64,000 nt of DNA from positions 1,734,501-1,798,500 of the forward strand of contig NZ_CP134494.1 in NCBI RefSeq assembly GCF_031759225.1, written 5' to 3'. Positions 2,593 to 59,943 of the stretch are shown in pieces. The translations under genes were made by a program, and so were the position numbers. Origin of the DNA: Mesobacillus jeotgali. Its GTDB lineage: Bacteria; Bacillota; Bacilli; Bacillales; Cytobacillaceae. The notes under the pieces were generated by a model. It was not told where the DNA came from. It worked only from the letters and a program-made list of their open reading frames with translations, and made no database searches. Every line of letters begins with the position of its first letter. Positions within the stretch are counted from its first letter, which is position 1.

Positions 2593-3319
2593 GACAGGTT
2601 TGGCCTCTGTTGCTGAAAAGCTGTCAAGAAAACGAGAGAATTGTGACAGGTTTGGTCTCTGTAGATGAAAAGCTGTCAAGAAAACGAAGGAATTATGACA
2701 GGTTTGGTCTCTGTAGATGAAAAGCTGTCAAGAAAACGAGTGAATTGTGACAGGTTTGGCCTCTGCAGCTGAAAAGCTGTCAAGAAAACGAAGGAATTAT
2801 GACAGGTTTGGCCTCTGTTGCTGAAAAGCTGTCAAGAAAACGAGAGAATTATGACAGGTTTGGCCTCTGTAGATGAGAAGCTGTCAAAAAACGAAGGAAT
2901 TATGACAGGTTTGTTCTCTGCAGCTGAAAAGCTGTCAAGAAAACGAAGGAATTATGACAGGTTTGGCCTCTGTAGATGAAAAGCTGTCAAGAAAACGAAG
3001 GAATTATGACAGGTTTAGCCTCTGCAGCTGAAAAGCTGTCAAAAAAACGAAGGAATTATGACAGGTTTGGTCTCTGTAGATGAAAAGCTGTCAAGAAAAC
3101 GAAGGAATTATGACAGGTTTGGCCTCTGTTGCTGAAAAGCTGTCAAGAAAACGAGGGAATTATGACAGCTTTGTTCTCTGCAGTTGAAAAGCTGTCAAGA
3201 AAACGAGTGAATTGTGACAGGTTTAACCTCTGCAGCTGAAAAGCTGTCAAGAAAACGAAGGAATTATGACAGGTTTAGCCTCTGCAGCTGAAAAGCTGTC
3301 AAGAAACCGAAAAATTTGA
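2593..3319. repeat. Tandem repeat array A: 14 units of 52 bp
   Basis: Units begin GACAGGTTT at 2593, 2645, 2697, 2749, 2801, 2853, 2904, 2956, 3008, 3060, 3112, 3164, 3216 and 3268. All are 52 bp except one of 51. Each runs GACAGGTTT, then a CTCTG block with a variable triplet, then TGAAAAGCTGTC, then AAGAAAACGAAGGAATTAT. GACAGgTTT and AAAgCTGTC form an inverted repeat. Units with CAGCTGAAAAGCTG can form a tight hairpin with a GAAA loop. A degenerate half unit precedes the array. It contains no open frame with coding character and fills most of the gap between mlpA and ymxH. Confidence 0.95.
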
Positions 3320-3433
3320 ACATGTTATCCCTACCTCCACAACAATTCACCCCTTTTTTCACGCAAATGTATTCTAAAAACATTATCATATTGATACATA
3401 TAGAATAAGGACAAAGTGACAGGGAGGGGCATC

Positions 3434-3679
3434 ATGAAATTAAGTGAACTTGGCGGAAAGGAAATCGTCGATGCAAAAAGGGCAGAAAGATTGGGTGTTC
3501 TTGGTCAGACGGATTTAGAAATCAATGAACGTTCGGGCCAAATTGAAGCTTTGATCATTCCATCTTTAAAATGGTTCGGACTTCGCAAACAGTCAGGAGA
3601 AGTTAGGGTTCCGTGGAAGCATATAAAGAAAATAGGTACAGACATGATTATCATTGATATTCCTGATGATGAAGAGTAA
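3434..3679 (+). CDS. ymxH: YlmC/YmxH family sporulation protein (PRC-barrel-like)
   Basis: 81 aa. The small beta-rich protein has the KLSELGGKEIVDAKRAERLG opening and the later VPWKHIKKIG segment typical of the YlmC/YmxH family, which is related to PRC-barrel domains. The ATG at 3434 is chosen because AGGGAGGGG sits just upstream; an in-frame GTG at 3416 would place the ribosome site inside the gene. Position between mlpA and dpaA matches B. subtilis. The function is unknown; the family is found in spore formers. Confidence 0.88.
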   Translation: MKLSELGGKEIVDAKRAERLGVLGQTDLEINERSGQIEALIIPSLKWFGLRKQSGEVRVPWKHIKKIGTDMIIIDIPDDEE

Positions 3680-3710
3680 AAGCGGGCACAGAGCCGGCTT
3701 TATTTTTTTT
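3678..3710 (+). terminator. Terminator of ymxH
   Basis: AAAGCGGGC, loop, GCCGGCTTT followed by ATTTTTTTT. It overlaps the last bases of the ymxH stop codon. Confidence 0.75.
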
Positions 3711-3753
3711 GCCATTATTATTCAATAAAAATCTACCCTTATAATATTGTTTC

Positions 3754-3786
3754 AAGCGCTGGCCATAAGGCTGGCGCTTTTCTTTT
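3754..3786 (+). terminator. Second strong hairpin terminator upstream of dpaA
   Basis: Left arm AAGCGCTGGCC, loop ATAA, right arm GGCTGGCGCTT with two G-U pairs, then TTCTTTT. A TATAAT box at 3740-3745 lies only about 10 bp upstream, so any transcript from it would be a very short terminated RNA. The element isolates dpaA from upstream transcription. Confidence 0.65.
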
Positions 3787-3797
3787 ATGGAAAACTC

Positions 3798-3824
3798 ACC
3801 TATTGGAAGTTAGATACATATGAT
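3798..3824 (+). promoter_or_regulatory. Sigma-K type promoter for dpaAB
   Basis: -35 AC at 3798-3799, 17-bp spacer, -10 CATATGAT at 3817-3824, fitting the sigma-K pattern AC-N16/17-CATAnnnT. Dipicolinate synthase is known to be a late mother-cell gene in B. subtilis, which supports the call. Confidence 0.6.
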
Positions 3825-3891
3825 GTTGAAGTAGTTCAAATTGGATGAAATATATATTCCAGGATTAATGGAAAAGAAGGTGATTGTTCTC

Positions 3892-4794
3892 ATGCTGACA
3901 GGAATGCAAATCGCAGTTATCGGCGGTGATGCGAGACAGCTGGAGATTATTCGCAAGCTGACAGAGCTTGATGCAAAGCTTTCTTTAATAGGCTTCGAGC
4001 AGTTGGACCATGCTTTCACAGGTGCCTCAAAAGAAAAGATAGATGAAGTTGATTTTTCCGTCCAGGACGCTTTGATCCTGCCTGTGCCAGGAACAAGTTT
4101 GGAGGGTCAGGTCGAAACGATTTTCTCGAATGAAAAAGTAGTTATTATTAAAGAAATGATTGAAAAGACCCCTGATCATTGCACAGTTTACTCGGGCATC
4201 AGTAATTCATATTTGACCGGGATTACTAAGCAAGCTAACAGGAAACTTGTACAGCTTTTTGCTAGAGATGATGTAGCAATTTACAACTCAATCCCGACTG
4301 TCGAAGGAACGATCATGATGGCAATCCAACATACAGATTTCACCATTCACGGCTCTAAAGTTGCCGTCCTCGGATTAGGCAGAGTTGGTATGAGTGTAGC
4401 CAGGACCTTCCATGCCCTTGGTGCCAAGGTAAAGGTCGGAGCAAGAAAAAGTGAACATATTGCAAGGATTTCGGAAATGGGATTAAAGCCGTTCCTGCTA
4501 TCAGATATTGGAAAAGAAGTGTCAGATATCGATATTTGCATCAATACGGTTCCTCATCAAATCGTTACTGCCTCCGTCATTTCGAGGATGCCAGCTCATA
4601 CCTTGATCATTGACCTTGCATCCAAACCAGGTGGAACGGATTTTCGCTATGCGGAAAAGCGCGGAATCAAAGCTTTGCTTGCGCCAGGCTTGCCGGGGAT
4701 CGTAGCCCCGAAAACTGCAGGGCAAATATTGGCGAACGTTCTTTCTCAGCTGCTTATGGAAGACTTTAATGACCGAAAGGAGAAAGAAGTATGA
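3892..4794 (+). CDS. dpaA: Dipicolinate synthase subunit A
   Basis: 300 aa from an ATG at 3892, where the protein reads MLTGMQIAVIGGDARQLEII, the usual family start. An in-frame start at 3841 would add 17 residues not expected in the family. The N-terminal domain is followed by a Rossmann fold with GLGRVG (about residues 160-165). With DpaB it makes dipicolinic acid from a dihydrodipicolinate-pathway intermediate in the mother cell for spore core dehydration. Overlaps dpaB by 4 bp and is preceded by a sigma-K-type promoter. Confidence 0.95.
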   Translation: MLTGMQIAVIGGDARQLEIIRKLTELDAKLSLIGFEQLDHAFTGASKEKIDEVDFSVQDALILPVPGTSLEGQVETIFSNEKVVIIKEMIEKTPDHCTVYSGISNSYLTGITKQANRKLVQLFARDDVAIYNSIPTVEGTIMMAIQHTDFTIHGSKVAVLGLGRVGMSVARTFHALGAKVKVGARKSEHIARISEMGLKPFLLSDIGKEVSDIDICINTVPHQIVTASVISRMPAHTLIIDLASKPGGTDFRYAEKRGIKALLAPGLPGIVAPKTAGQILANVLSQLLMEDFNDRKEKEV

Positions 4795-5387
4795 GTTTAA
4801 AAGGAAAAAAGATCGGATTCGGATTAACGGGCTCGCATTGTACGTATGATGCTGTATTTCCTGAAATTGAAAAGCTGGTGAATGCTGGTGCTGAAGTTTT
4901 ACCTGTTGTCACATTCACTGTAAAAAATACAGAAACACGATTTGGTAAAGGAGAAGATTGGGTACAGCGGATTGAGGAACTCACTGGCAATAATGTGATA
5001 GACTCGATTGTGAAGGCAGAACCTCTTGGTCCCAAAATCCCGCTTGACTGTATGGTCATTGCGCCGCTTACGGGTAACTCCATGAGCAAGTTTGCGAATG
5101 CAATGACAGATTCACCAGTTCTAATGGCTGCAAAAGCTACATTAAGGAACCAAAAGCCGGTTGTACTGGGTATTTCGACTAATGACGCTTTAGGGCTTAA
5201 CGGCGTCAATCTTATGAGGTTAATGGCGACAAAAAACATTTACATGATTCCTTTTGGCCAGGATGATCCAGTTAAAAAGCCAAATTCCATGGTTGCAAGA
5301 ATGGGGATGCTTTCCGAAACAATCATTGAAGCAATGAACGGAAATCAGCTTCAGCCAGTACTAGTGGAACGTTATAAGGATAATTAA
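4791..5387 (+). CDS. dpaB: Dipicolinate synthase subunit B
   Basis: 198 aa flavoprotein-like subunit (UbiX/Pad1-like fold) opening MSLKGKKIGFGLTGSHCTYD, with the APLTGNSMSKFANA segment typical of the family. Its start overlaps the dpaA stop (ATGA), implying translational coupling and equal production. It works with DpaA in dipicolinate formation during late sporulation. No convincing terminator is seen after it. Confidence 0.95.
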   Translation: MSLKGKKIGFGLTGSHCTYDAVFPEIEKLVNAGAEVLPVVTFTVKNTETRFGKGEDWVQRIEELTGNNVIDSIVKAEPLGPKIPLDCMVIAPLTGNSMSKFANAMTDSPVLMAAKATLRNQKPVVLGISTNDALGLNGVNLMRLMATKNIYMIPFGQDDPVKKPNSMVARMGMLSETIIEAMNGNQLQPVLVERYKDN

Positions 5388-5610
5388 TGCTTAATACCAG
5401 GCTCTTTTCGCACGCCTTGTTATTTGCGCAGTTAAATATTGCGCAATCAGGATACAGGCAACAACGGAAAGGGTCTGGAATCGTATTAGAAGCCAGAAAA
5501 AATAGGTTCCAGAAAGCTTGAATCACAACCAATCCTGTCCCAAATACGACCAATTTAATTTGGAAATGCTTTTCTCCGGCAGTGAAGCAAAATGTTTCTT
5601 TTCTTAATGA

Positions 5611-5638
5611 TTGATTATGATAAAATATAGGATAATAT
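5611..5638 (+). promoter_or_regulatory. Candidate sigma-A promoter for asd-dapG-dapA
   Basis: -35 TTGATT (5611-5616), 16-bp spacer, -10 TAATAT (5633-5638). It would give an untranslated leader of about 115 bases before asd. Confidence 0.4.
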
Positions 5639-5642
5639 ACTA

Positions 5643-5724
5643 GGTGGACTGAACAAGGCGCTTGCGCATTCTATTAGACCACCGGTTTACTTATGGTTCA
5701 AACAACCCCAGCTGAAATGCGGGG
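5643..5724 (+). other. Potentially structured leader upstream of asd
   Basis: GGTGG (5643-5647) pairs with CCACC (5679-5683), enclosing a GCGC/GCGC stem (5658-5661 with 5664-5667). A second hairpin, CCCCAGC with GCGGGG, spans 5706-5724. There is no T-run, and neither lysine-riboswitch nor T-box consensus sequences are present. The rest of the 374-base dpaB-asd gap shows nothing recognisable. Confidence 0.35.
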
Positions 5725-5761
5725 ATATTAAACGATAATTGTAGTGGAAGGGGAAACAGCA

Positions 5762-6811
5762 ATGTCAGAGAGAAAAGGTTACCGTATAGCAGTAGTGGGA
5801 GCAACAGGAGCAGTAGGACAGCAGATGATCCAGACGCTCGAAAGCAGGGACTTTCCTGTATCCGAGCTTTTATTATTGTCATCTTCAAGGTCAGCTGGTA
5901 CAAAGGTCCAGTATAAAGGAAAAGAGATAACAGTACAGGAAGCCAAGCCAGAAAGCTTTGAAGGTGTGGATATTGCCCTGTTCAGCGCAGGAGGAAGTGT
6001 TTCAAAAGCGCTGGCACCCGAAGCAGTCAAACGCGGAGCGATCGTTGTTGATAACACAAGTGCATTCCGCATGGATGAGAACACTCCGCTTGTTGTGCCT
6101 GAAGTGAATGAGGAAGATTTGCATTCTCATAACGGAATCATTGCTAACCCGAACTGCTCTACGATCCAAATGGTTGTTGCTCTGGAGCCATTACGTAAGA
6201 AGTTCGGCCTGGAAAAGATCATTGTATCAACTTACCAGGCAGTATCAGGTGCAGGTGCGGCGGCTGTCGAGGAGCTGGAGGAACAGACACAGGCAATCCT
6301 GAACGGAGAAGAATATGAACCAAAGATTCTTCCGGTGAAGTCAGCGGAAAAGCACTACCAAATTGCATTCAATGCGATCCCACAGATCGATACATTCGTA
6401 GATAACGGATTCACATACGAAGAGATGAAAATGATCAATGAAACGAAGAAAATCATGCACATGCCTGAGCTTCAGGTTGCTGCAACATGTGTAAGGCTGC
6501 CGGTTGGCACTGGTCATTCAGAGTCTGTTTATATTGAGATTGGCCAGGACGGTGTTTCAGCAGCAGACATTAAAGAACTTATGTCTGATGCACCAGGAGT
6601 AGTCCTTCAGGATGACCCTGCACAGCAGCTTTATCCAATGCCTGCATTCTGTGTCGGCAAAAATGACGTATTTGTCGGCAGAATCAGGAAGGATCTGGAC
6701 AATGAAAAGGGCTTCCATATGTGGGTTGTTTCTGACAATCTGTTAAAAGGTGCTGCATGGAACTCAGTCCAGATTGCTGAAAGCCTTGTGAAGCTTGGGT
6801 TGGTAAAATAA
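5762..6811 (+). CDS. asd: Aspartate-semialdehyde dehydrogenase
   Basis: 349 aa. NADPH-dependent reduction of aspartyl phosphate to aspartate semialdehyde, the branch point toward lysine/DAP/dipicolinate and threonine/methionine. The N-terminal [12 protein letters not shown] is the nucleotide-binding loop; the catalytic cysteine lies in NPNCSTIQM (about residue 128) and the substrate motif GTGHSE is present. The ATG at 5762 follows GGAAGGGGAA; an ATG 18 bp upstream would need a site with no Shine-Dalgarno. First gene of the asd-dapG-dapA cluster. Confidence 0.96.
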
Positions 6812-6851
6812 AAGCATAATTGATTAATGACAGAATTTCTGAGGTGTTACG

Positions 6852-8096
6852 ATGAAGATAATCGTTCAAAAATTTGGCGGTACATCTGTACGGGACGAAC
6901 AAAGCCGCAGCCAGGCGATGAGACATATAAAGAAAGCAATCTCTGATGGATATAAAGCTGTTGTGGTCGTTTCTGCGATGGGTAGGAAAGGGGATCCGTA
7001 TGCAACAGACACCCTTCTCAGCCTGTTAGGTGGAAGTGACAGCAAGATCAGCAAGCGCGAGCATGATCTGCTGTTATCATGCGGAGAAACGATTTCCAGT
7101 ATCGTTTTTACAAACATGCTGCTTGAGAATGGGATCAGTGCAACGGCCCTCACAGGTGCCCAGGCAGGGTTCAGGACAAATAGCGAGCATACAAACGCCA
7201 GGATCCTTGATATGAAATGCGACCGTCTGTTGCGGGAACTTGATCAAGTCGATGTGGTCGTCGTAGCTGGATTCCAGGGGGCTGCGAAAAATGGAGATGT
7301 GACAACAATCGGCAGGGGCGGCAGTGACACATCTGCTGCAGCACTTGGCGCAGCGTTAAACGCGGAATGGATTGACATCTTTACCGATGTTGAGGGCATC
7401 ATGACAGCCGATCCAAGGATTGCAGAAAATGCAAGACCTCTTTCAGTGGTCACGTATACTGAAGTTTGCAATATGGCATATCAGGGAGCAAAGGTAATCC
7501 ATCCTCGTGCCGTAGAGATTGCCATGCAGGCAAAAGTGCCGATCAGAATCAGGTCTACCTATTCCGATGGCCTCGGAACGCTGGTTACGGCTCTTAATCG
7601 TGAAAATAAAGGGACTGACATTAAGGAACGACCTGTAACAGGAATAGCGCATGTTTCAAATGTCAGCCAGATTAAGGTTTTTGCAAAAAAAGACCAATAT
7701 AATCTTCAATCTGAAGTTTTCAAGGCAATGGCAAATGAAAACATCAGTGTAGATTTTATCAATATTTCCCCAAATGGGGTGGTCTACACGGTCCTTGATG
7801 AAATGACGGATCGAGCGGTAAGGGTGTTGGAAGGCTTGGGACACACGCCGCAAATTGAGAAGCATTGCGCAAAGGTCTCCGTTGTCGGAGCAGGTATGGC
7901 GGGAGTACCAGGGGTAACTTCGAAAATTGTAACAGCTTTATCAGAAAAAGGCATTCGCATCCTTCAATCCGCTGACAGCCATACAACCATTTGGGTGTTG
8001 GTGAAACAAGAGGATTTAGGAAAGGCAGTAAATGCTTTGCATGATGCCTTCCAGCTCGAGGAAGAAACAGCAGAGTTCGAGCGTCAAGACATATAA
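6852..8096 (+). CDS. dapG: Aspartokinase I (DapG type)
   Basis: 414 aa. The kinase domain begins IIVQKFGGTSV and includes GRGGSDTSAAAL and the FTDVEGIMTADPR substrate segment; two ACT domains follow (about residues 265-400), one with VSVVGAGMAGVPG. Phosphorylates aspartate as the first step of the aspartate pathway. In B. subtilis this isozyme is feedback inhibited by meso-diaminopimelate. The start follows TGAGGTG. Lies 40 bp after asd with no terminator, so probably co-transcribed. Confidence 0.95.
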   Translation: MKIIVQKFGGTSVRDEQSRSQAMRHIKKAISDGYKAVVVVSAMGRKGDPYATDTLLSLLGGSDSKISKREHDLLLSCGETISSIVFTNMLLENGISATALTGAQAGFRTNSEHTNARILDMKCDRLLRELDQVDVVVVAGFQGAAKNGDVTTIGRGGSDTSAAALGAALNAEWIDIFTDVEGIMTADPRIAENARPLSVVTYTEVCNMAYQGAKVIHPRAVEIAMQAKVPIRIRSTYSDGLGTLVTALNRENKGTDIKERPVTGIAHVSNVSQIKVFAKKDQYNLQSEVFKAMANENISVDFINISPNGVVYTVLDEMTDRAVRVLEGLGHTPQIEKHCAKVSVVGAGMAGVPGVTSKIVTALSEKGIRILQSADSHTTIWVLVKQEDLGKAVNALHDAFQLEEETAEFERQDI

Positions 8097-8155
8097 AAAG
8101 ATCTTGCTTCCCAGCATTTGCTGTCGGAAGCCTTTCAGAAGAGGAGTGAACAGGA

Positions 8156-9022
8156 ATGGTTCAATTCGGAAGAGTATCCACAGCAATGGTGACCCCATTT
8201 GATCACAAAGGTCACATTGATTTCGCTAAAACGACCCAGCTAGTTAACCATTTGATTGATAACGGATCAGATTCACTCGTGGTTGCAGGGACAACAGGTG
8301 AATCCCCGACTCTTTCCAAAGAAGAGAAAATCGCATTATTCCAGCACGTCGTGAAGGTTGTAGACAAGAGGGTGCCTGTCATTGCAGGAACAGGCAGCAA
8401 TAACACCTATGCCACCATCGAACTGACAAAAAAGGCAGAAGAAATTGGTGTAGATGCAATCATGATCGTAGCACCATACTATAACAAGCCGAACCAGGAA
8501 GGCTTATACCAGCACTTTAAAGCAGCAGCAGAAGCTACATCTCTGCCTGTGATGGTTTACAATATTCCGGGAAGATCAGTCGTGAATATCCTGCCCGAAA
8601 CAGTGATCAAGCTGGCTGAAATCCCAAATGTTGTCGCTGTAAAGGAAGCTAGTGGTGACTTGAATGCCATGACTAAAATCATTGCAAATACACCAGATGA
8701 TTTCCTTTTATACAGTGGTGATGACGGATTGACCCTGCCGGTTCTCGCAATCGGCGGTACAGGTATTGTCTCTGTTGCATCACATGTGATTGGAAACGAG
8801 ATGCAAGCAATGGTCGATGCTTTCTTCAGCGGAAGAAATGCGGACGCTGCAAAAATGCATCAACGCCTGCTTCCGATCATGGAAGGACTCTTCGCTGCTC
8901 CAAGCCCGGCGCCTGTCAAAACGGCATTGCAGCTAAAAGGCCTTGATGTCGGTTCCGTTCGTTTACCAATGGTGCCTTTAACAGAACAAGAAAGATCAGC
9001 AGTAGCCAAACTTTTTCAATAG
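8156..9022 (+). CDS. dapA: 4-hydroxy-tetrahydrodipicolinate synthase
   Basis: 288 aa, standard length. Condenses pyruvate with aspartate semialdehyde. Visible are the GTTGESPTL substrate-binding motif, the MVYNIPGR tyrosine segment, and the Schiff-base lysine in VVAVKEASGD (about residue 163). The start follows AGAGGAG. The 59-bp gap after dapG holds a 26-bp hairpin without T-run. A strong terminator follows, so the asd-dapG-dapA unit ends here. Confidence 0.96.
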   Translation: MVQFGRVSTAMVTPFDHKGHIDFAKTTQLVNHLIDNGSDSLVVAGTTGESPTLSKEEKIALFQHVVKVVDKRVPVIAGTGSNNTYATIELTKKAEEIGVDAIMIVAPYYNKPNQEGLYQHFKAAAEATSLPVMVYNIPGRSVVNILPETVIKLAEIPNVVAVKEASGDLNAMTKIIANTPDDFLLYSGDDGLTLPVLAIGGTGIVSVASHVIGNEMQAMVDAFFSGRNADAAKMHQRLLPIMEGLFAAPSPAPVKTALQLKGLDVGSVRLPMVPLTEQERSAVAKLFQ

Positions 9023-9027
9023 AACAT

Positions 9028-9057
9028 AAGGCCAGCCAGTGGGTTGGCCTTTTTTTA
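9028..9057 (+). terminator. Terminator of the asd-dapG-dapA unit
   Basis: AAGGCCA ... TGGCCTT followed by a run of Ts. Confidence 0.85.
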
Positions 9058-9063
9058 TTTAAA

Positions 9064-9231
9064 AGTAAAAGCAGAGCCCCTGCATTGCCCAAAAACTGGA
9101 TACCAGAACTCAAACGGTAAAAGCAGGGCCAGTGCATTGCCCGAAAACTGGATTCCAGAGCTCAAACGGTAAAAGCAGAGTCCCTGCATTGCCCGAAAAC
9201 CAGGTTACAGAGCCCGAACGGTAAAAGCAGT
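9064..9231. repeat. Tandem repeat array B1: three full units and one partial, 52 bp
   Basis: Units begin GGTAAAAGCAG at 9064 (first base degenerate), 9116, 9168 and 9220, exactly 52 bp apart. Each has an arm GGTAAAAGCAGAG, a short loop, the opposing arm CTGCATTGCCC, and a 25-base spacer starting GAAAACTGG or similar. The same family recurs at 59812-59943. The array lies between the dapA terminator and the RNase J promoter. Confidence 0.92.
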
Positions 9232-9285
9232 AATCCTTCTAAAGAGAGAGATGTTAATTCCTACACCAGAGGCGATTGAATAAAG

Positions 9286-9315
9286 TTGTAAAGATTTTCT
9301 GTCATCAAGTATAAT
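9286..9315 (+). promoter_or_regulatory. Sigma-A promoter for the RNase J gene
   Basis: -35 TTGTAA (9286-9291), 18-bp spacer, -10 TATAAT (9310-9315), about 50 bp before the start codon. Confidence 0.55.
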
Positions 9316-9366
9316 GATTTTAACTGATAATGGTTCGGATTTTTACAGCACAGGAGGAGCACGGAA

Positions 9367-11034
9367 TTGATAGCAAAAAACGAGAGTATTAAGATTATTC
9401 CACTTGGTGGAGTGGGGGAAATCGGCAAGAATATGTACATCACCGAAGTGGACGGTGATATTTTTGTGGTTGATGCGGGCTTGATGTTTCCTGAGGATGA
9501 GATGCTCGGGATTGATGTGGTCATACCTGATTTTACTTATTTGGTTTCGAATAGTGATAGGGTGAAAGCAATTTTCCTTACGCACGGGCATGAAGACCAT
9601 ATAGGTGCATTAGGCTATATTTTACGCAAAATCAATGTAGCGGTTTACGGAACAAAGCTAACGATCGCCCTGGCAAAGGAAAAAATGAAAGAACAGGATT
9701 TCACTGGTTCGGCTGACTTTCGTGAAATTAATGCAGATACAGTAGTGGATTTCGACAAAGTTTCTGTTTCCTTTTTTAAAACCAATCATAGCATCCCTGG
9801 TTCAGTCGGCATTAGCATTCATACATCTGAAGGTGCAATCGTACATACAGGGGACTTTAAATTTGACCAGGCAGCAGCTCCGCTATACAAACCTGAAGTT
9901 GGCAAGATGGCTGCAATAGGTGAAAAAGGTGTTCTCTGCCTGCTTTCTGACAGTACTGAGGCTGAAAGACCTGGACATACACCTTCTGAATCAACCGTAG
10001 TCGCTGAACTATCCGACGTCTTTTATAATGCACAGGGCAGGATCATTGCTGCCTGCTTCGCATCTGACCTTAACAGGATCCAGCACCTATTTAACAGTGC
10101 ATCAGCAAATGGCCGAAAAGTGGCAGTGGCAGGAAATAGCTTGAAACGGATATTTGATATCGCATTGCAACTCGGCTATTTACAGGTAGAAGAAGATCTG
10201 ATCATATCGGTTAATGAACTAAAGGATTACGATAACAGCCAGGTGGTGGTTTTAACCACAGGAAGTCAGGGTGAGCCCATTGAAGCTCTGCAGAAAATGG
10301 CTAAACAAGTGCATCCGCAAGTAAATATTCAGGCAGGGGACACAGTATTGTTTGCTGCATCTCCTTTAAGGGGAAGCGAAGTGTTTATTTATAAGACCAT
10401 GGATATGCTTTACCGTGCGGGTGCGAATGTAGTATCCAGCAAAAATAGTGTCCAGGTCTCAAGCCATGGAAGCCAGGAAGAATTGAAATTCATGATCAAT
10501 CTGATGAATCCTAAATTCTTCATTCCAGTACATGGTGAATACAAAATGCTGAAGGCCCATAAAAAGCTAGCACAAGCATGCGGGATTCCGGAAGAAAATA
10601 TTTTTATCCCCGATCGCGGAGACGTGATTGAAATTTCAGGGGGGGTACTAAAGTTTACGGAGAAGGTGCCCGCCGGGAATACATTGATTGATGGAATCGG
10701 GGTTGGAGATGTAGGAAACATTGTTCTCCGAGACCGAAGACTGCTATCTCAAGACGGCGTTTTACTTGTAGTGGTGACACTGAATAAAACCGACAGGAAG
10801 ATTATTGCCGGACCGGAAATTATCTCGCGCGGCTTCGTCTATGTGCGCGAATCAGAGAAGCTGATGAATGATTCTGCTGCACTTGTAAGAGAAATCGTCG
10901 AGAAAAATGCTAATAAAGGCTCTTTCGATTGGAATAGTTTAAAACAGGATATCCGGGACTCCCTTCACCAATATTTATATGAAAAAACAAAACGCCGCCC
11001 AATGATCATGCCGATCATCATGGAGGTTAAATAA
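9367..11034 (+). CDS. rnjB: Ribonuclease J, RnjB (J2) position
   Basis: 555 aa beta-lactamase/beta-CASP ribonuclease. The TTG start follows an excellent AGGAGG. Metal-ligand motifs are complete: HGHEDH at residues 73-78, NHS near 141, HTGDF near 163 and the late VHGEY. At the same locus B. subtilis RnjB carries degenerate residues in the first motif (recalled as HGHDEN) and has little activity. The C-terminal segment FLYEKTKRRPMI-type is family typical. The product likely joins RNase J complexes for RNA maturation and decay. Assignment as J2 rests on synteny (dapA upstream, tepA downstream); it could be a catalytically competent J2 or a J1-like paralogue. Confidence 0.9.
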   Translation: MIAKNESIKIIPLGGVGEIGKNMYITEVDGDIFVVDAGLMFPEDEMLGIDVVIPDFTYLVSNSDRVKAIFLTHGHEDHIGALGYILRKINVAVYGTKLTIALAKEKMKEQDFTGSADFREINADTVVDFDKVSVSFFKTNHSIPGSVGISIHTSEGAIVHTGDFKFDQAAAPLYKPEVGKMAAIGEKGVLCLLSDSTEAERPGHTPSESTVVAELSDVFYNAQGRIIAACFASDLNRIQHLFNSASANGRKVAVAGNSLKRIFDIALQLGYLQVEEDLIISVNELKDYDNSQVVVLTTGSQGEPIEALQKMAKQVHPQVNIQAGDTVLFAASPLRGSEVFIYKTMDMLYRAGANVVSSKNSVQVSSHGSQEELKFMINLMNPKFFIPVHGEYKMLKAHKKLAQACGIPEENIFIPDRGDVIEISGGVLKFTEKVPAGNTLIDGIGVGDVGNIVLRDRRLLSQDGVLLVVVTLNKTDRKIIAGPEIISRGFVYVRESEKLMNDSAALVREIVEKNANKGSFDWNSLKQDIRDSLHQYLYEKTKRRPMIMPIIMEVK

Positions 11035-33339: not shown

Positions 33340-34137
33340 ATGAGAATTTTATTTGTAGGGGATGTCGTAGGTTCCCCTGGCAGGGATATGGTTACGGAAT
33401 ATTTGCCTAAGCTAAAAGGAAAATTTCGACCGACTGTTACCATCATAAATGGTGAGAATGCAGCGAGCGGTAAAGGAATAACAGAGAAGATTTACAGGCA
33501 GTTTCTCGAGCAGGGCGCCCAGGCAGTGACTTTAGGCAACCACGCGTGGGATAATCGTGATATTTTTGAATTCATCGATTCTGCTAAATATCTGGTAAGG
33601 CCAGCCAATTTTCCTGAAGAAGTACCTGGGAAAGGGATAGTCTATTTAAAGATCAACCAGGAGGAACTGGCAATAATCAACCTGCAGGGCCGTACTTTCT
33701 TGACGCCAATAGATTGCCCATTTAAAAAAGCAGATGAATTGATTGAGGAAGCGAGAAAACGCACTTCCCTCATCTTCGTCGATTTCCATGCCGAGGCAAC
33801 TAGCGAAAAGCAGGCGATGGGCTGGTATCTTGATGGAAGAGTTTCCGCCGTGGTCGGGACGCATACTCATGTCCAGACAGCAGATGAGAGGATTTTGCCC
33901 TCTGGTACAGCCTTTCTGACCGATGTAGGCATGACCGGGCCTTATGATGGTATATTGGGAGTAGAAAAAGAAGCAGTACTTAGAAGGTTCATGACAAGCC
34001 TGCCAACACGCTTTGAAGTAGCCAAGGATGGAAGAAACCAGCTATCTGCAGTATTGATAGATTTGGACAAGAAAACTGGCAAGGCAGTGAAAATCCAGAA
34101 AATCCTGATTAATGAAGATCATCCTTTTTATGAGTAA
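33340..34137 (+). CDS. ymdB: YmdB metallophosphoesterase
   Basis: 265 aa, the family length. Metal-binding motifs GDVVGSPGR (N-terminus), NGENAASGKG, GNHAWD and GTHTHV are in the expected order. B. subtilis YmdB is a phosphodiesterase acting on cyclic nucleotides and needed for biofilm and motility switching. It follows rny, as in B. subtilis, with its own ribosome site and a terminator after. Confidence 0.95.
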   Translation: MRILFVGDVVGSPGRDMVTEYLPKLKGKFRPTVTIINGENAASGKGITEKIYRQFLEQGAQAVTLGNHAWDNRDIFEFIDSAKYLVRPANFPEEVPGKGIVYLKINQEELAIINLQGRTFLTPIDCPFKKADELIEEARKRTSLIFVDFHAEATSEKQAMGWYLDGRVSAVVGTHTHVQTADERILPSGTAFLTDVGMTGPYDGILGVEKEAVLRRFMTSLPTRFEVAKDGRNQLSAVLIDLDKKTGKAVKIQKILINEDHPFYE

Positions 34138-34258: not shown

Positions 34259-34629
34259 GAAAGGTATCCTTATGCCGAGGAAAGACGGATCATAAGGGCA
34301 CGATACTCGAAGAAAGGTACCCTTATGATGATGGGATATTCTTCGAAAGGGCACCATTAAGATAGAAAGATACCCTTATGAAGAGGGAGGAGCCGTCAAA
34401 AGGGCACCATTAAGATAGAAAGATACCCTTATGAAGAGGGAGGAGCCGTCAAAAGGGCACCATTAAGATAGAAAGATACCCTTATGAAGAGGGAGGAGCC
34501 GTCAAAAGGGCACCATTAAGGTAGAAAGATACCCTTATGATGATGGGATATCCTTCGAAAGGGCATCATTAAGGTAGAAAGATACCCTTATGAAGAGGAA
34601 ATGGACAACATAAGGGTGCGTGCAATCAA
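34259..34629. repeat. Tandem repeat array C: seven units of 53 bp
   Basis: Units begin GAAAGRTAYCC at 34259, 34312, 34365, 34418, 34471, 34524 and 34577, exactly 53 bp apart. Each contains TACCCTTATG and an opposing AAGGGCACC about 18 bases later (inverted repeat), then ATTAAGATA or similar. The three central units are almost identical, while the outer units diverge and form the best stem (ACCCTTATG with CATAAGGGT in the last). No coding potential. Occupies half of the ymdB-spoVS gap; bases 34630-34770 show nothing further. Confidence 0.95.
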
Positions 34630-52588: not shown

Positions 52589-52637
52589 AAAAAAGCCGAT
52601 CCAACTCCATATTTTTGGAATTGAATCGGCTTTTTTT
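52589..52637. terminator. Terminator of the transposase gene
   Basis: GCCGAT ... ATCGGC with further pairing CTCCA/TGGA, flanked by A-run and T-run, so bidirectional. Inside the left end of the IS. Confidence 0.75.
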
Positions 52638-52661
52638 CCAGTTTCTTGTCCCCTTTGGCCT

Positions 52662-54119: not shown

Positions 54120-54237
54120 TGGAACCACCCATTTCAGCTAAATTAATTCTATTATAAAATAAAAACCGCCCAAATCCCTTAAAAAAGTCAGGATTTGAAC
54201 GGTTTATAGTTTGTCTAAATAAGGTTTAGTAGCACTA

Positions 54238-54371
54238 GGTTGATTGGAACGGAAGGTGCGTAGACTCCTGCGGGATCAGCGGGACAGGTGAGACCCCGCA
54301 GGCGCTTTAGCGCTGAGGAGGCTCACCGCACGCCCCGCGGAAAGCGAAGCAACCTGGAGTGGAAATCAACC
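54238..54371. repeat. 134-bp GC-rich Bacillaceae-type repeat inside the IS right end
   Basis: Ends GGTTGATT / AATCAACC are inverted. Internal pairs include TCCTGCGGG with CCCGCAGG, and GAGG-CTCACCG with an upstream CAGGTGAG. From memory, very similar elements (GACTCCTGCGGG ... GGAAATCAAC) are common between genes in many Bacillaceae. No open reading frame. Confidence 0.8.
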
Positions 54372-54417
54372 GGTCCTATTTAACAAGCTATCCAGTGGGG
54401 ACTTTTTCAGTGGCCTC

Positions 54418-54440
54418 GGCCCTTATAGGGTCTTTTTTTT
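54418..54440 (+). terminator. Original terminator of the GNAT gene, now right of the IS
   Basis: GGCCCTTATAGGGTC with following T-run. The left nine bases are repeated at 52531, next to the GNAT stop codon, so the hairpin was duplicated in part by the insertion. Confidence 0.7.
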
Positions 54441-54555
54441 TCGGATAAATAAAGCATAGATTTCACTTAATGTTAATAAACGTGGCGGGGTGACGGCAAG
54501 AAAAGGGGTTAAAATGGAGGTGCGAAGAAGGAATGTGTTAGTGAGGGATTAGTTC

Positions 54556-55578
54556 ATGGAGATGCAAACTGAGTTTTTATCAGAGATTGTTGACCATCTG
54601 CCCGAGGGCATGATTGTTATGGATAAAAATCGGACAATTCATTACCTTAATGAAAAAGCTTTTGACATGACTGGCTGGAAGCTTGGAGAGACGGTGCCGT
54701 ACTGTACCTATTGCCAGGAACGGGAAGTGGAAGAGAATGAAAATCGCTGTATTCTGACTACCGATGACCCGATTCCTTTTTTCAACTCTCATCTGGCAGT
54801 GTATGAAGGACTTGAAGAGTTTGAAATGTCATTGAAAAAGATGACTATATCGGAAGAGATATATTATGTGCTAAGGATCCGGCCGCCTGTACAGAATGAA
54901 AATAGTGAACGGGCCCGCTTTCATGAGCTGCTTGTTCAAGAAACGTTGCTGGCACAGGAGGCTGAGCGTAAAAGGATTGCCATGGAACTTCATGATCATA
55001 TCGGCCAGAGTGTCTATAGCATTTTCCTTGGTCTCGAGGTTATCAAACAGAATATAAGCGTTGATAAATATCAAAATCATGTTACCAATATGGTCAATGT
55101 CATGGAAAAAACCCTTCAAGATATTAAACGCCTGACTAAAAGCCTCAGACCTGAAATCGTCTATGATATCGGTTTGGAAAAGTCCCTGGTGCAGGCCGTG
55201 AAGGACTGGAAAAAGCTGTACCAGATAGAAATTTTCCTGGATATGGATATAAATCGCGAGCATGATTTGGATCCTGAAAAAGAACTGCATCTATTCAGGA
55301 TTATCCAGGAAAGTATCACAAATTCAGTCCGCCACGGAAAAGCCAATTATTTTTCGATTCATTTAAAAAGCAACTATCAATATATCTTTTTCCAATTATA
55401 CGACAATGGTAATGGCTTTATTTCAGAGGGTTGCAAAACGAAAGGGCTCGGTCTGAAGCATATGTATGAACGCTGCAAAATGCTTGATGGCGACATCAAG
55501 TGGATCAGTAAAGAAGGCGGTCCAACTAGGGTGGAAGGGTTTGTATCTTTAATAAAAGCGGAGGGAGAGAGAATATGA
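54556..55578 (+). CDS. Sensor histidine kinase, PAS plus HisKA_3, NreB-like
   Basis: 340 aa without membrane segments. PAS domain (about residues 5-120), dimerisation/phosphoacceptor helix with ELHDHIGQSV (about 143-152), and HATPase with FRIIQESITNSVRHG and GLGLKHMYERC. The PAS carries CTYC ... C with spacing C-x2-C-x11-C, identical to the first three cluster cysteines of the oxygen sensor NreB, but the fourth position is Thr. Likely cytoplasmic redox or ligand sensing. Start after GTGAGGG; overlaps the regulator gene by 4 bp. Confidence 0.87.
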   Translation: MEMQTEFLSEIVDHLPEGMIVMDKNRTIHYLNEKAFDMTGWKLGETVPYCTYCQEREVEENENRCILTTDDPIPFFNSHLAVYEGLEEFEMSLKKMTISEEIYYVLRIRPPVQNENSERARFHELLVQETLLAQEAERKRIAMELHDHIGQSVYSIFLGLEVIKQNISVDKYQNHVTNMVNVMEKTLQDIKRLTKSLRPEIVYDIGLEKSLVQAVKDWKKLYQIEIFLDMDINREHDLDPEKELHLFRIIQESITNSVRHGKANYFSIHLKSNYQYIFFQLYDNGNGFISEGCKTKGLGLKHMYERCKMLDGDIKWISKEGGPTRVEGFVSLIKAEGERI

Positions 55579-56201
55579 ACCTGATGATTATCGATGATCA
55601 TGAAATCGTCCGTGACGGTTTAAGCATGCTGCTGCAGCAATCTTTTTGCATTGATGGCAGGATTTGTGCCTGCGATGGCTATGAAGCTGTTAAAGCTGCG
55701 GCTGAATTTCCCGCCGATCTCGTACTGCTTGACCTTTCAATGCCAGGCGGCCTGGACGGTATGACAACCCTGGAAAGGCTGCGGAAACTGCTTCCGGATG
55801 CCAAAATAGTCATTTTTTCGATGCATGATGATATCATGTATCAAAAGAAGGCTTATGAGGCAGGGGCAGACGGCTATTTAATCAAACAGCTGAAGCGGGA
55901 CGATCTAATCCAATCGCTTGATAAAATTCTGGCCAACCAGAAAGTGTTCGATACACATATATGGGAAGATGATTCGGATGGTGACCAAGTCAATCTTGTC
56001 GACCTCCCGATCACAAAGCGTGAAAAGGAAGTTTTCATCCTGACTGTTAAAGGATATTCCCAAAAAGATATCGCTGAAAGGCTGGATATTTCAGTGAAGA
56101 CCGTGGAAAACCATCGTCAAAAAATCGGTGAGAAGCTAGGTACCCATAAACGGTATGAATGGGTCGAAACAGCACGAAAATATAATGTATTCCAACCTTA
56201 G
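55575..56201 (+). CDS. NarL/LuxR family response regulator
   Basis: 208 aa. Receiver domain with acidic pair DDHE and phosphoacceptor aspartate in LLDLSMPGG (about residue 54), and LuxR helix-turn-helix (ITKREKEVFILTVKGYSQKD onwards, residues about 142-200). Cognate of the preceding kinase by the ATGA overlap. Probably activates the ABC exporter genes that follow. Confidence 0.92.
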   Translation: MNLMIIDDHEIVRDGLSMLLQQSFCIDGRICACDGYEAVKAAAEFPADLVLLDLSMPGGLDGMTTLERLRKLLPDAKIVIFSMHDDIMYQKKAYEAGADGYLIKQLKRDDLIQSLDKILANQKVFDTHIWEDDSDGDQVNLVDLPITKREKEVFILTVKGYSQKDIAERLDISVKTVENHRQKIGEKLGTHKRYEWVETARKYNVFQP

Positions 56202-56228
56202 AGCAGGACAAACATGTCTTGCTTTTTT
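56202..56228 (+). terminator. Terminator of the two-component operon
   Basis: AGCAGGACA, loop AACA, TGTCTTGCT (one G-U pair), then T-run. It begins one base after the response-regulator stop. Confidence 0.8.
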
Positions 56229-56405
56229 ATATGGGCGAATTTTTCATTCTGTCACAAGAAAGCCATGGTCTCGGCATTTGCGGGTCCCAGGGTTAATCCA
56301 TGAGAATCTTTTCTAAATATATTCATATATTTATTGGAATTTATTTCATGGAACAAAAGTTTCTGAGATAATTAAATTATGATAGGACGAAAGTAGGTGT
56401 TCTGA

Positions 56406-57347
56406 ATGGAAGTCTTGGAAGTAGTGCAATTGACTAAGAGGTTTAAAGAGTTCGAAGCAGTCAAAGATGTTTCTTTTTCCGTAAAGAAGGGTGAATCATT
56501 TGGTCTTCTTGGACCCAATGGTGCAGGAAAGACGACCACGATCCAAATGATTTCAGGTTTATTCCCTCCGAGTTCAGGAGGTATTCGTATTGCAGGCATT
56601 GATATGGTCAGACAGCCAAAGCAGGGGCAAGGGCTTTTAGGGATTGTTCCGCAGGAGATTGCTCTCTACCAACAGATGAGTGCGAGGGAAAACCTGTCAT
56701 TCTGGGGCAGAATGTATGGTTTAAGCGGCAGCCATTTGCAAGAAAGGATTAAAGAGGTGCTTGATATCATTGGTTTGACTGACCGGGCCGGGGAAAAAGT
56801 CGAGACGTTTTCCGGTGGAATGAAGAGAAGAGTAAACATAGGTGCTGCGATTTTACATAACCCGGAGTTACTGATTATGGATGAACCGACAGTTGGGATT
56901 GATCCTCAATCCCGTAGCCATATTCTTGATACGGTAAAAAGGCTAAATGCAGAAGGGATGACGGTCATCTATACAAGTCACTATATGGAGGAAGTTGAGT
57001 ATCTTTGTGAAAAGATCGGCATTATGGATCAGGGAGAATTCATCGTATCAGGAACCATTTCAGAGTTAAGAGAGACAATCGGTGATCGCTCACGTATTGT
57101 CATGAACTTTTCCGGAGCAGCCAAGCTTGAGAACCTAAAAATGGCATTAGCTCCATCGATCCCTGAACATGATCTGTCAATAAATCATGATGAATTGGCG
57201 ATTTTTCACAAAGAACCACAAAAAGTTCTTAGTGAATTGATTCAGACCGTCACGGGTGCCGGCTTTGAAATCACATCAGTAGAAGTCGTGGAACCGAACC
57301 TTGAGAGTGTGTTCCTCCATCTTACTGGCCGAAGTCTAAGGGATTAA
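56406..57347 (+). CDS. ABC exporter ATP-binding subunit (LnrL-like)
   Basis: 313 aa. Walker A GPNGAGKTT (about residue 38), signature FSGGMKRR, Walker B LLIMDEPTVGIDP, then a C-terminal DUF4162-type domain. The order kinase, regulator, ATPase and two ABC-2 permeases equals that of B. subtilis lnrJKLMN (yfiJKLMN, linearmycin resistance). Substrate here unknown; a lipid-active or antimicrobial exporter is inferred. Confidence 0.9.
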   Translation: MEVLEVVQLTKRFKEFEAVKDVSFSVKKGESFGLLGPNGAGKTTTIQMISGLFPPSSGGIRIAGIDMVRQPKQGQGLLGIVPQEIALYQQMSARENLSFWGRMYGLSGSHLQERIKEVLDIIGLTDRAGEKVETFSGGMKRRVNIGAAILHNPELLIMDEPTVGIDPQSRSHILDTVKRLNAEGMTVIYTSHYMEEVEYLCEKIGIMDQGEFIVSGTISELRETIGDRSRIVMNFSGAAKLENLKMALAPSIPEHDLSINHDELAIFHKEPQKVLSELIQTVTGAGFEITSVEVVEPNLESVFLHLTGRSLRD

Positions 57348-57361
57348 AGGAGGGGATGGAT

Positions 57362-58543
57362 ATGGGGTTTTGGTGGCTGGCGTTAAAAGATACCATTCTC
57401 ATGGCAAGGGACCGGAAAGCACTGCTGACACTCGTTCTCATGCCAATCTTATTGATCGGAATCCTTGGTGCAGCGTTTGGTAATATGATGGATGAAGAAG
57501 AAGCACCCTCCATAAAAAAATTCAAGGTCGGTATTGTTAACCATGATCAAGGTCAATTAGGGAGTGTGTTGTCTCAAGAGGTGTTCATGACAGGCCTTCC
57601 AGAGCTGATTTCTGCAAAGGAGATGACGGAAAAGGAGCTTGATGATCATTTGCAGCAGCAGGTAATTTCCGTAGGAATCATCATTCCCCAGGATTTTTCT
57701 GATCATATCATTTCGGGTGAAGAGTCTGATGTGCACGTCGTCTCCATTCCGTCGGCATCTATTCAATCATCGATCGTCGAGAATGTCGTGCTTCAATTCA
57801 CTCAGGCAGCAGCTGTGAATGTAATAGCCATGGAGGTTGCTGGTCCAGCCGGCAACAGCGAAACTCTTCCTGCTATGTCGGCAGCTGATTATGACGTTGT
57901 CGAAGAAGTGGCGGTAGAACAAGATCAAAAACCAGTGGGGTCATTCCAGTATTATGCTGCTGGCATGGGTGTCATGTTTTTACTGATGACGGTTATTACC
58001 GGAGTAAGCGCAATGATTGATGAAAAGGAACAAGATGTATACAACCGTCTGCTGGTTACCAAACTGTCGAATCAGCAATACTTAATCGGCAAGTTTATTG
58101 GCTTACTGTTTATGTCGTCAATTCAATTTCTCATTATCATTCTTGGAACACATTATCTTTATCATGTCCGTTGGGGAGATTCTATCACAGGTGTCTTGAT
58201 AGTCGGCTTTGCTTTTGTTTTTAGCGTGTCCGGGCTAGGGGTTCTCCTGGGTGCCCTTGTCAAAAAGGAGAAAACCTTCAATGCGGCCGGAATGCTGGCA
58301 ACTCAAATAATGGCAGCTGTCGGCGGGAGCATGGTCCCCTTGTATATTTTTCCCGATTGGGTCAATACGGTCGTGAAAGTCCTTCCCAATGCCCTTGCCC
58401 TCCAAACATTCCTGGAGTTGATGTCAGGTGCAGGAGCGGGGAAAGTTTGGCTTGAAGCAAGCATTTTAATTGCAATTGGTCTTGGGTCACTCCTCATTGC
58501 GTTTTTATCGCTGTCGGCAAGAAGGAGGGCTTCGCATGCGTAA
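57362..58543 (+). CDS. ABC-2 type permease (LnrM-like)
   Basis: 393 aa, one N-terminal membrane segment, a large extracellular region (about residues 50-190) and five C-terminal membrane segments. The ATG at 57362 follows AAAGGAGGGG with good spacing; another six bases upstream abuts it. Overlaps the next permease by 8 bp. Confidence 0.88.
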   Translation: MGFWWLALKDTILMARDRKALLTLVLMPILLIGILGAAFGNMMDEEEAPSIKKFKVGIVNHDQGQLGSVLSQEVFMTGLPELISAKEMTEKELDDHLQQQVISVGIIIPQDFSDHIISGEESDVHVVSIPSASIQSSIVENVVLQFTQAAAVNVIAMEVAGPAGNSETLPAMSAADYDVVEEVAVEQDQKPVGSFQYYAAGMGVMFLLMTVITGVSAMIDEKEQDVYNRLLVTKLSNQQYLIGKFIGLLFMSSIQFLIIILGTHYLYHVRWGDSITGVLIVGFAFVFSVSGLGVLLGALVKKEKTFNAAGMLATQIMAAVGGSMVPLYIFPDWVNTVVKVLPNALALQTFLELMSGAGAGKVWLEASILIAIGLGSLLIAFLSLSARRRASHA

Positions 58544-59666
58544 AGTTTTACCGATTGCATTCTTACATTTGAAAACTATGTTTAAAACGCCATCGGCAAT
58601 TATTCTGATGTTTGTCATGCCGATTTTTTTCAGTATTATTTTTGGAGGGATTGGTTCTGAAGGAACATCAGGGGATAAACCGGTCGTGATGATGGCAGCA
58701 AAAAATGATGAAAGTAACAGCAGGATTATCGATTTAATGTCTTCAAACAGCCAGTATAAATGGCTTAAGGCGGATGAGAAAAAAGCTCGGGAAGCTGTCG
58801 AAAAACAAGAAGCCATGGCAGCGGTAATCATTACAGAATCAGTAGCAGAGAATCATGAACTGAAGAAGCCGCTTTTTCAAATAGTGGTTCAGAGGAAAAC
58901 GCAGGAGTTTCTTGCACTAAGCAGTTATGTTGAAGGTGTTGGAAGGACTGTTACTTCAGCACTTGAAATGTCTCCCGGACAAGAACCTGCTGCTTTCAAT
59001 GCTATACTCGAGAAAGCTTCAGCTCGTGAACCATTGGATATCAGCAGTGAAATCATCCAAAAAGAAGAATCAAAAACTGGTTCCGTCGGCATGCTGGCGA
59101 TCGGCTTTACAATTATGTTCATGATGTTCGGAATTTCAGGAGCAGCCTCCGCCATTCTTGATGAAAAGGTCGGAGGAACATGGCAGCGCCTGCTTACCTC
59201 ACCAACGACGAAAGCTCAGGTGATGACTGGTTATTTATTTTCCTATTTCTTGATGGGAGCAATCCAATTAACCGTCCTCATGATCGTTATGTACGTAATT
59301 TATGGTTCCATGTGGGGGAATTTATTCTATTTCATCCCATTTGCAGCACTGGTCATCATCACGATTGTCGGATTTGGCCTCATGATGGCAGGCATCGTAA
59401 AAACAAGACAGCAGGCAAGTGCATTGAGCGCTGTGTTAATTGTCAGCACCTGCATGCTGGGAGGAGTTTATTGGCCAATTGAGATAGTCCCTGAATTCAT
59501 GCAGCAAATAGCCAAAGCGGTGCCTCAAAGCTGGATGATCACAGGATTCCGTGAAATCGTCAGTGGAAGCCTGTATCTCCCTGCGCTCCGTAATTCCACA
59601 GCAGTCTTGCTTGTATTCAGCCTCGTGTTCTTCACAATTGGCTTGAGAAGGATGAAATATGAGTGA
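58536..59666 (+). CDS. ABC-2 type permease (LnrN-like)
   Basis: 376 aa with the same layout as its neighbour: membrane segment near residues 20-38, extracellular part to about 180, then five or six membrane segments. ATG after AAGGAGGG. Likely heterodimer with the previous permease. Confidence 0.88.
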   Translation: MRKVLPIAFLHLKTMFKTPSAIILMFVMPIFFSIIFGGIGSEGTSGDKPVVMMAAKNDESNSRIIDLMSSNSQYKWLKADEKKAREAVEKQEAMAAVIITESVAENHELKKPLFQIVVQRKTQEFLALSSYVEGVGRTVTSALEMSPGQEPAAFNAILEKASAREPLDISSEIIQKEESKTGSVGMLAIGFTIMFMMFGISGAASAILDEKVGGTWQRLLTSPTTKAQVMTGYLFSYFLMGAIQLTVLMIVMYVIYGSMWGNLFYFIPFAALVIITIVGFGLMMAGIVKTRQQASALSAVLIVSTCMLGGVYWPIEIVPEFMQQIAKAVPQSWMITGFREIVSGSLYLPALRNSTAVLLVFSLVFFTIGLRRMKYE

Positions 59667-59669
59667 TGT

Positions 59670-59705
59670 TTACCAGTCCTTATTGAGGACTGGTAATTCT
59701 TTTTA
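59670..59705 (+). terminator. Terminator of the ABC exporter operon
   Basis: TTACCAGTCC, loop TTATTGA, GGACTGGTAA, then TTCTTTTT. Confidence 0.85.
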
Positions 59706-59811
59706 ATGGGATTCTATCGAAAATTATTTTTTGTCGAGTTATAATAGATATTTAGAATAAGAGTCGAAACATGATTCTTGGATTGACCGAATAAGAAAGA
59801 ATAGACTAATT

Positions 59812-59943
59812 GGGTAAAAGCAGAACCGCTGCATTACCCGAAAACGGACAAAAGCATGAAGTATGGTAAAAGCAGAGCGTCTGCATTGCCCGAAAAAGAG
59901 AAACAAGATGAAAAACGGTAAAAGCAGAACATCTGCATTACCT
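59812..59943. repeat. Tandem repeat array B2: three units of 52 bp
   Basis: Units begin GGTAAAAGCAGA at 59813, 59865 and 59917, exactly 52 bp apart. The same arms as array B1 at 9064-9231: GGTAAAAGCAGA and TCTGCATTRCC. The spacers differ from B1 except for the opening CGAAAA. Ends 35 bp before mutS. The rest of the permease-mutS gap shows only a terminator and an AT-rich stretch. Confidence 0.93.

Follow-up and report, generated by a model that had tools for sequence, protein, structure and literature searches.

Intergenic repeat arrays of constant unit length in Mesobacillus jeotgali: palindrome geometry, helical phasing, and direction relative to replication

The stretch of the Mesobacillus jeotgali genome analyzed here (the window, 64,000 nucleotides; bases 1,734,501-1,798,500 of the single contig NZ_CP134494.1 of 4,634,919 bp) holds four intergenic tandem arrays of period 52-53, designated A, B1, B2, and C, as detected with Tandem Repeats Finder (TRF). 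Arrays of this kind recur throughout the chromosome. Their units have a nearly constant length of 51-53 bp, mostly carry imperfect palindromes of 27 bp with covarying arms, show A/T steps every 10.4 bp, and, where a direction can be assigned, run almost always with the replication fork. The letters of the arrays keep step with the helix and mostly point along replication and may therefore be readable as shaped DNA, not as code. On balance we favor the view that the arrays are double-stranded DNA platforms in a five-turn register that are bound or wrapped by some protein.

A first, sequence-only reading of the window, which is partly supported as a whole, knew of no named system with this layout. 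That claim does not hold, as the phenomenon of constant-length arrays is already published. Subirana and Messeguer (2021; PMC8161180) described Bacillus repeats of constant 52-nt and 20-21-nt length and variable sequence, with function not known, among them 49 repeats with 51-53-nt units and 30 with 20-21-nt units in B. selenatarsenatis (now Mesobacillus). They remarked that 20-21 nt equals two helical turns, found "no obvious explanation" for the constant 52 nt, and suggested a nucleoid protein polymerizing on DNA or small RNAs. Their repeats and the arrays studied here are alike in a period of 51-53, non-coding position, many families of one length, a companion class of 20-21 nt, and partial conservation between strains. 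All four window arrays likewise have a unit length that is not a multiple of three and lie strictly between open reading frames (ORFs), as the sequence-only reading had stated. B1 and B2 (3.2 and 2.5 copies) would escape detection in PMC8161180 because four repeats are required there, a minimum reached by A (14.0) and C (5.4). PMC8161180 makes no mention of a 27-bp geometry, of phasing at 10.4 bp, or of a replication direction, in all of which the present arrays differ from its description; the words "leading strand," "curvature," "palindrom," and "orientation" are absent from its text. A literature search, with subscription papers mostly outside its reach, returned no report of 27-bp geometry, 10.4-bp phasing, or replication polarity; on 52-bp arrays as such, it led only to the papers of Subirana and Messeguer. 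In the literature searched, the 27-bp palindromes, the phasing, the fork-wise direction, and the arm covariation appear to be new.

Unit length and palindrome geometry

The period census counted non-coding TRF arrays with a score of at least 50 in an unbiased sample that combined the window with 40 stretches of 20 kb each, taken at even intervals (864 kb in all, 18.6% of the genome). Coding and non-coding arrays were separated with a crude in-house ORF caller. Periods of 51-53 made up 34 of the 57 non-coding arrays (51, one; 52, 28; 53, five), and periods of 19-21 another 14 (13 of 56 under a laxer ORF filter), which corresponds to the 20-21-nt companion repeats seen by PMC8161180 in intermediate species. 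The other nine arrays had periods of 12 (two), 15 (two), 23, 26, 34, 42, and 91 (one each). In coding arrays, every period was a multiple of 3. A broad range of periods or a lack of further 52-53-bp arrays, named in the sequence-only reading as signs of an accidental coincidence, was not encountered, and by this test the shared period exceeds chance. The 34 arrays span 13,147 bp and extrapolate to ~182 per genome. From the GC skew, whose sign flips in the interval 2.37-2.465 Mb, the origin was placed close to base 1 and the terminus at about 2.39 Mb. The arrays are distributed over the whole path between the two, with a density that falls from 5.0 per 100 kb at the origin to 2.5 at the terminus. 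In relatives (20-kb flanks of one gene in 80 named Bacillaceae, coding arrays not filtered), period 52 was found in 13 of the 19 arrays above period 30. Complete units had exactly the TRF period of their array in 423 of 507 cases.

For the anatomy of the units, the sample was extended by 40 further stretches, partly picked for known arrays, to 69 arrays in total. A typical unit consists of a 27-bp imperfect palindrome and a 25-26-bp linker. Three palindromes in a common frame accommodated 56 of the 69 consensus units: class I, TGTC-N19-GACA (38 units); class II, GGTNA-N17-T(A/G)CCC, followed in most by GAA (12 units); and class III, GGGYAYC-N13-GRTACCC-like (six units, all of 53 bp). The remaining 13 matched none of them exactly. 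The geometry is tight. Of the 367 outer spans from TGTC to GACA that fell in the range 8-64 bp, 337 measured 27, nine more measured 25, 26, 28, or 29, and 21 lay elsewhere. From one right-hand box to the next, the distance was 52 in 245 of 271 cases below 80, with eight others within 50-53 and the rest mostly at 18 and 34 from secondary matches. The families of the window had been called unrelated. Their sequences do differ at one length, but A, B, and C share the 27-bp box-pair geometry.

The arms of the palindromes covary. Among 15 non-redundant class I units, 60 of 105 differing pairs were complementary, compared with 38.0 ± 5.4 after shuffling, and the values for 10 class II units were 52 of 90 and 34.6 ± 4.9. 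The outer extensions of the arms covary in class I (59 of 120 versus 43.6 ± 5.3 shuffled); no covariation was seen in those of class II (27 of 80 versus 24.0 ± 4.0). Arrays began with a left box and ended with a right box in 24 of 38 class I and 3 of 12 class II cases, and a boundary rule was set aside as a tendency limited to class I.

Helical phasing and replication direction

If 52 bp is meaningful as five turns, A/T steps are expected every 10.4 bp within the unit. For WW dinucleotides (W is A or T), z reached 12.2 at the fifth harmonic across 42 non-redundant units, and the other harmonics up to 15 lay between -3.8 and 1.6. The fifth-harmonic values were z = 9.1 for AA/TT (sixth harmonic, 2.6) and z = 5.9 for AAA/TTT. 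The share of WW variance at the fifth harmonic was 0.189 in 63 units, compared with 0.071 for 7408 array-free intergenic 52-mers and 0.062 for 5677 coding ones. Among the classes, the share was 0.205 and 0.230 in the two parts of class I, 0.144 in class II, 0.183 in the 53-bp units, and 0.128 in six unclassed units, and in every class the fifth harmonic was the highest for WW. Along the arrays, WW autocorrelation peaked at 10, 21, 31, 42, and 52 bp. The helical register proposed from the period alone is thus supported within the units. The in-unit phasing makes the "five helical turns" a measurable property instead of a numeric coincidence, and it recurs in other species: the 27 units printed in PMC8161180 (13 species or strains) gave z = 9.4. 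Units of relatives gave z = 5.7 (27 units) and, for 14 units unlike any array in the studied genome, z = 4.1.

Relative to the dyad of the 27-bp palindrome, the WW phase was close to 180 degrees in every unit of class I (36) and of class II (8). Because the dyad forces a phase of 0 or 180 and the units of a class share their boxes, the evidence lies in the agreement of the two classes and in the linkers that follow the phase. The less conserved class I linkers followed the phase of the boxes with r = 0.37 (30 of 36 positive), the class II linkers with r = 0.39 (9 of 10 positive; 6 of 7 non-redundant), and the class III linkers in 5 of 5 cases (p = 0.05). Among 25 hairpin-bearing published units, the phase was within 40 degrees of 180 in 17, within 40 degrees of 0 in two, and elsewhere in six.

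Direction was assessed from the boxes. Genome-wide, the 14 forward occurrences of the class II pattern are confined to positions below 1.97 Mb and the four reverse ones to positions above 3.36 Mb; the reversed-pattern control gave 0. In the sampled stretches, 184 class I boxes ran with the fork and two against, and the class II boxes numbered 24 and 0. GC skew alone is inadequate to explain the class II direction, since, on the leading strand, the box pair GGT...TGCCC contains more C than its reverse would. The class III boxes are symmetrical (25 and 20) and give no information on direction. A direction could be assigned to 29 of the 69 arrays, of which 28 run with the fork and one against; the latter lies at ~2,267,025 (contig), close to the terminus and flanked by lagging-strand genes. 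Two arrays, near 532,200 and 2,745,500 (contig), had matches on both strands. In three relatives, all 20 arrays, from 19 of 20 stretches, agreed with the local GC skew, and in two of these stretches they did so although coding is mostly on the opposite strand. Together, the in-unit phasing and the fixed fork direction point to a function at the level of DNA.

Proposed function and alternative explanations

In the platform model, geometry would be conserved and sequence largely free, and the 51-53 bp of a unit would make up five helical turns. Because the A/T steps recur every ~10.4 bp and hold a constant phase relative to the palindrome, all palindromes would lie on one face, and a unidirectional bend of the DNA is possible. 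A DNA-wrapping or architectural protein might then assemble along the platform. The combination of free sequence and fixed geometry suggests a reader of shape rather than a specific repressor. By analogy, the wrapping protein may be a ubiquitous one, perhaps gyrase, which binds some BIMEs, or an HU-type protein; both are guesses. Copy number would shift by slippage or unequal exchange, and selection would retain the register; bending, a binder, and selection are what we infer. Replication slippage had been offered as a possible cause of the common period. Phasing at 10.4 bp would not follow from slippage alone, although slippage or unequal exchange is the natural source of change in copy number. 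Such change is seen at the site of array A, where TRF counted 14.0 copies in the studied genome, 8.3 in ISL-55, 5.9 in ISL-37 (after an N run), and 3.3 in M. selenatarsenatis (contig end). By eye, ~2 units were present in ISL-45 and M. boroniphilus, and no units were seen in three further records (L055, L082, and L094).

Several results weigh against this model. No binder was found. Single units are noisy, with only 29 of 63 above the 95th percentile of the intergenic controls; AA/TT taken alone has no fifth-harmonic peak in class II or in the six unclassed units; and the non-redundant class I linkers follow the phase weakly (r = 0.19, p = 0.03, 9 of 15 positive). WW phasing need not imply bending, as the title of PMC7537859 indicates ("Selection for ancient periodic motifs that do not impart DNA bending"). 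The covariation of the arms is also compatible with hairpins. Of 25 published units from other species, only three have a best hairpin with a span of exactly 27, and the 27-bp rule is therefore established in this genus alone. The periods, described as exact by the sequence-only reading, are 52, 52, and 53 by TRF in the window, but 84 of the 507 units in the wider sample deviate, in part from a TRF consensus one base short. Compensated indels that keep the unit length were dismissed, as only 14 of 98 indel-bearing units were net zero in a comparison without a neutral indel control.

Hairpins could act in RNA or in single-stranded DNA. A role of transcribed arrays as repeated hairpins (small RNAs or sponges), as proposed by Subirana and Messeguer, would account for the arm covariation. 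Within arrays, 12 double changes fell on stem pairs versus 5.5 expected, eight of the 12 being paired, and single stem changes leaned to G-T over A-C (30 versus 17). RNA-seq reads over B. coagulans repeats were reported in PMC8161180, and PMC8625621 also describes transcription of repeats in that species. We nevertheless regard an RNA role as improbable. A scan of the 64-kb window with Rfam 15 gave 0 matches at gathering score, and the fixed spacing and the 10.4-bp phasing are unexpected of RNA. Among class I consensus units, G-T and A-C mismatches were equal (14 and 14) against shuffled expectations of 20.3 and 28.9. Direction, moreover, tracks replication and not the flanking genes: around the 28 fork-wise arrays, these were on the same strand in 18 cases, convergent in six, divergent in two, and both opposed in two. 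Palindromic units might instead fold on the lagging-strand template at the fork and expand by slippage, either as selfish elements or as processing sites. Direction with the fork, covarying arms, and the variation in copy number at the orthologous site agree with this, yet neither the length of 51-53 bp nor the phasing of units and linkers is predicted by it, and the class III boxes have no direction. We give this explanation little credence.

Descent alone has points in its favor. One ancestral 52-bp repeat may have spread and diverged so that the length is inherited, not selected. The boxes are common to many loci in the studied genome and the genus, and length goes with family, each of the six units of class III being 53 bp long. 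The class I pattern occurred in 27 of 193 family genomes, 19 of them among the 21 genomes of the genus (reversed control, three hits in all), and the class II pattern in 19 of the 21 (control hits, eight). Because the same box sequences recur in arrays at many loci within the genus, descent and spread contribute. The earlier claim that unrelated sequences had converged on one period, without spread of one element, was to this extent overstated, while the common length itself stood. Descent as the sole cause, however, seems quite unlikely. Lengths keep to 51-53 despite a per-site divergence of 10.6% within arrays (3155 of 29,788) and despite classes that can hardly be aligned with one another; phasing is present in unlike units; and in a second genus (g11), class I boxes recur at 51-bp spacing. 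Substitutions outnumbered indels by 3155 to 190, a ratio that has no neutral control beside it.

A stronger version of the platform model appears possible but is held only tentatively: ~180 replication-oriented DNA-shape arrays per genome in which selection acts on geometry alone (five-turn register, dyad, and 10.4-bp A/T phasing) while the sequence drifts. If so, the arrays would be wrapping platforms for a universal machine (gyrase or some nucleoid protein, for example) and a bacterial counterpart of nucleosome-favoring satellite DNA, and the 20-21-bp arrays would be the two-turn version of the 52-bp arrays.

Three known systems resemble the arrays in part. REP, REPIN, and BIME elements of enterobacteria and pseudomonads (PMC3733652; PMC3116915) are short intergenic imperfect palindromes that at times form tandem clusters, like the arrays. 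REPs differ from the arrays in that a GTAG or CGTC tag, together with a partner transposase, defines them. For Y1 transposases, the genome yielded only three near-identical copies (97.6-99.5%) within a repeated segment of ~0.76-0.8 kb; they are IS200-like and lie at 4,305,398, 359,260, and 1,517,440 of the contig (L187, L188, and L189). These copies apparently represent an insertion sequence; a Y1 transposase was considered as a partner of the arrays and provisionally set aside. The Ter sites bound by RTP in B. subtilis are imperfect palindromes of ~30 bp with a fork direction. The arrays are likewise imperfect palindromes oriented to the fork, but they are scattered from origin to terminus, and the RTP family was above cut-off in 0 of 21 genomes of the genus (six weak matches below it; the B. 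subtilis control was positive). RTP was therefore rejected as the binder. CRISPR loci share regular spacing and palindromic repeats with the arrays. CRISPR-type unique spacers were not found in the arrays, where the entire 52-bp unit repeats, linker included.

Window arrays, companion arrays, and neighboring sequences

The features of the window are compiled below. TRF confirmed the arrays and periods of the sequence-only reading, with coordinates a few bases off, and the inverted repeat described for each unit is present: TGACAG/CTGTCA in array A, GGTAAAAGCAG/CTGCATTGCCC in family B, and CCCTTATG/CATAAGGG in array C. B1 and B2 are both short and form a single family. By wraparound alignment, array C has 6.75 copies. 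The 86-amino acid ORF beside it, which may be SpoVS, had no NCBIfam match. A tRNA scan of the window gave no match.

Features of the window (positions are those of the window)
Feature	Position	Strand	Description
Peptidase-like gene	1252-2484		Flanks array A; match below cut-offs only
Array A	2584-3311	+	52-bp unit x 14.0, 89% matches, class I boxes TGTC-N19-GACA (TRF)
Class I box pair, array A	2622-2648	+	Example, 27 bp, sequence pattern
YlmC/YmxH-family gene	3434-3679		Flanks array A; above profile cut-off
dapA	8156-9022		Flanks array B1; above profile cut-off
Terminator-like hairpin	9028-9051		Immediately precedes array B1
Array B1	9065-9230	+	52-bp unit x 3.2, 85% matches, class II boxes GGTNA-N17-TGCCC, then GAAA (TRF)
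Class II box pair, array B1	9116-9142	+	Example, 27 bp, genome-wide pattern (contig 1743616)
RNase J-family gene	9367-11034		Flanks array B1; above profile cut-off
TIGR00282 metallophosphoesterase gene	33340-34137		Flanks array C
Class III box pair, array C	34296-34322	+	First, 27 bp, degenerate unit ahead of TRF start
Array C	34311-34598	+	53-bp unit x 5.4, 91% matches, class III boxes GGGYAYC-N13-GRTACCC (TRF)
ORF, 86 amino acids	34876-35136		Flanks array C
Array B2	59813-59942	+	52-bp unit x 2.5, 81% matches, class II boxes (TRF)
mutS	59966-62638		Directly downstream of array B2; above profile cut-off
Further array	63827-63878		27 bp x 2.0, sole other TRF array

A second class of intergenic arrays has units of 20-21 bp, or two helical turns, for example at 643,757, 863,887, 1,841,998, and 4,092,467 of the contig. 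Their recurrent motifs are TCGCTATA, TCGCCAATAAAA, or TATCGACC. One of the three was present in 17 of 29 arrays of 19-22 bp, and 15 of these 17 run with replication. At the second harmonic, 26 units of the 20-21-bp arrays gave z = 4.4.

The placement of arrays among genes was also recorded. In the unbiased part, six arrays lay in convergent and three in divergent gaps versus 33 and 54 array-free gaps (p = 0.15); across all 81 sources, the counts were 16 and 6 versus 78 and 120 (p = 0.005). An enrichment in convergent gaps is not relied on. Of 66 gene ends next to an array, 53 showed a terminator-like hairpin, as did 356 of 472 ends without an array and 113 of the 247 5' flanks of genes that were scanned; because of the similar rates at array-free ends and the matches in 5' flanks, the scan is uninformative.

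Among named genomes, in a comparison that may have excluded the window's own record, the most similar copies of the flanking gene came from Bacillus sp. ISL isolates and Mesobacillus. Record JAGGQZ010000001.1 (L094) is titled Chryseobacterium sp. ISL-80, but its locus is 94% protein-identical to this Mesobacillus-like gene, and the title is therefore probably wrong. Other repeats were noted in passing. The studied genome has a long, highly repetitive stretch with periods of 15 and 276 bp, partly within a called coding region (L155, 986067-987049). Two relatives carry two-copy repeats of 123 and 125 bp with 99% identity (L080, 17697-17935; L127, 15445-15705), in which no resemblance to the 52-bp arrays was noted. 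In another genus, a 40-bp x 4.0 array adjoins a 52-bp array (L230, 495-654).

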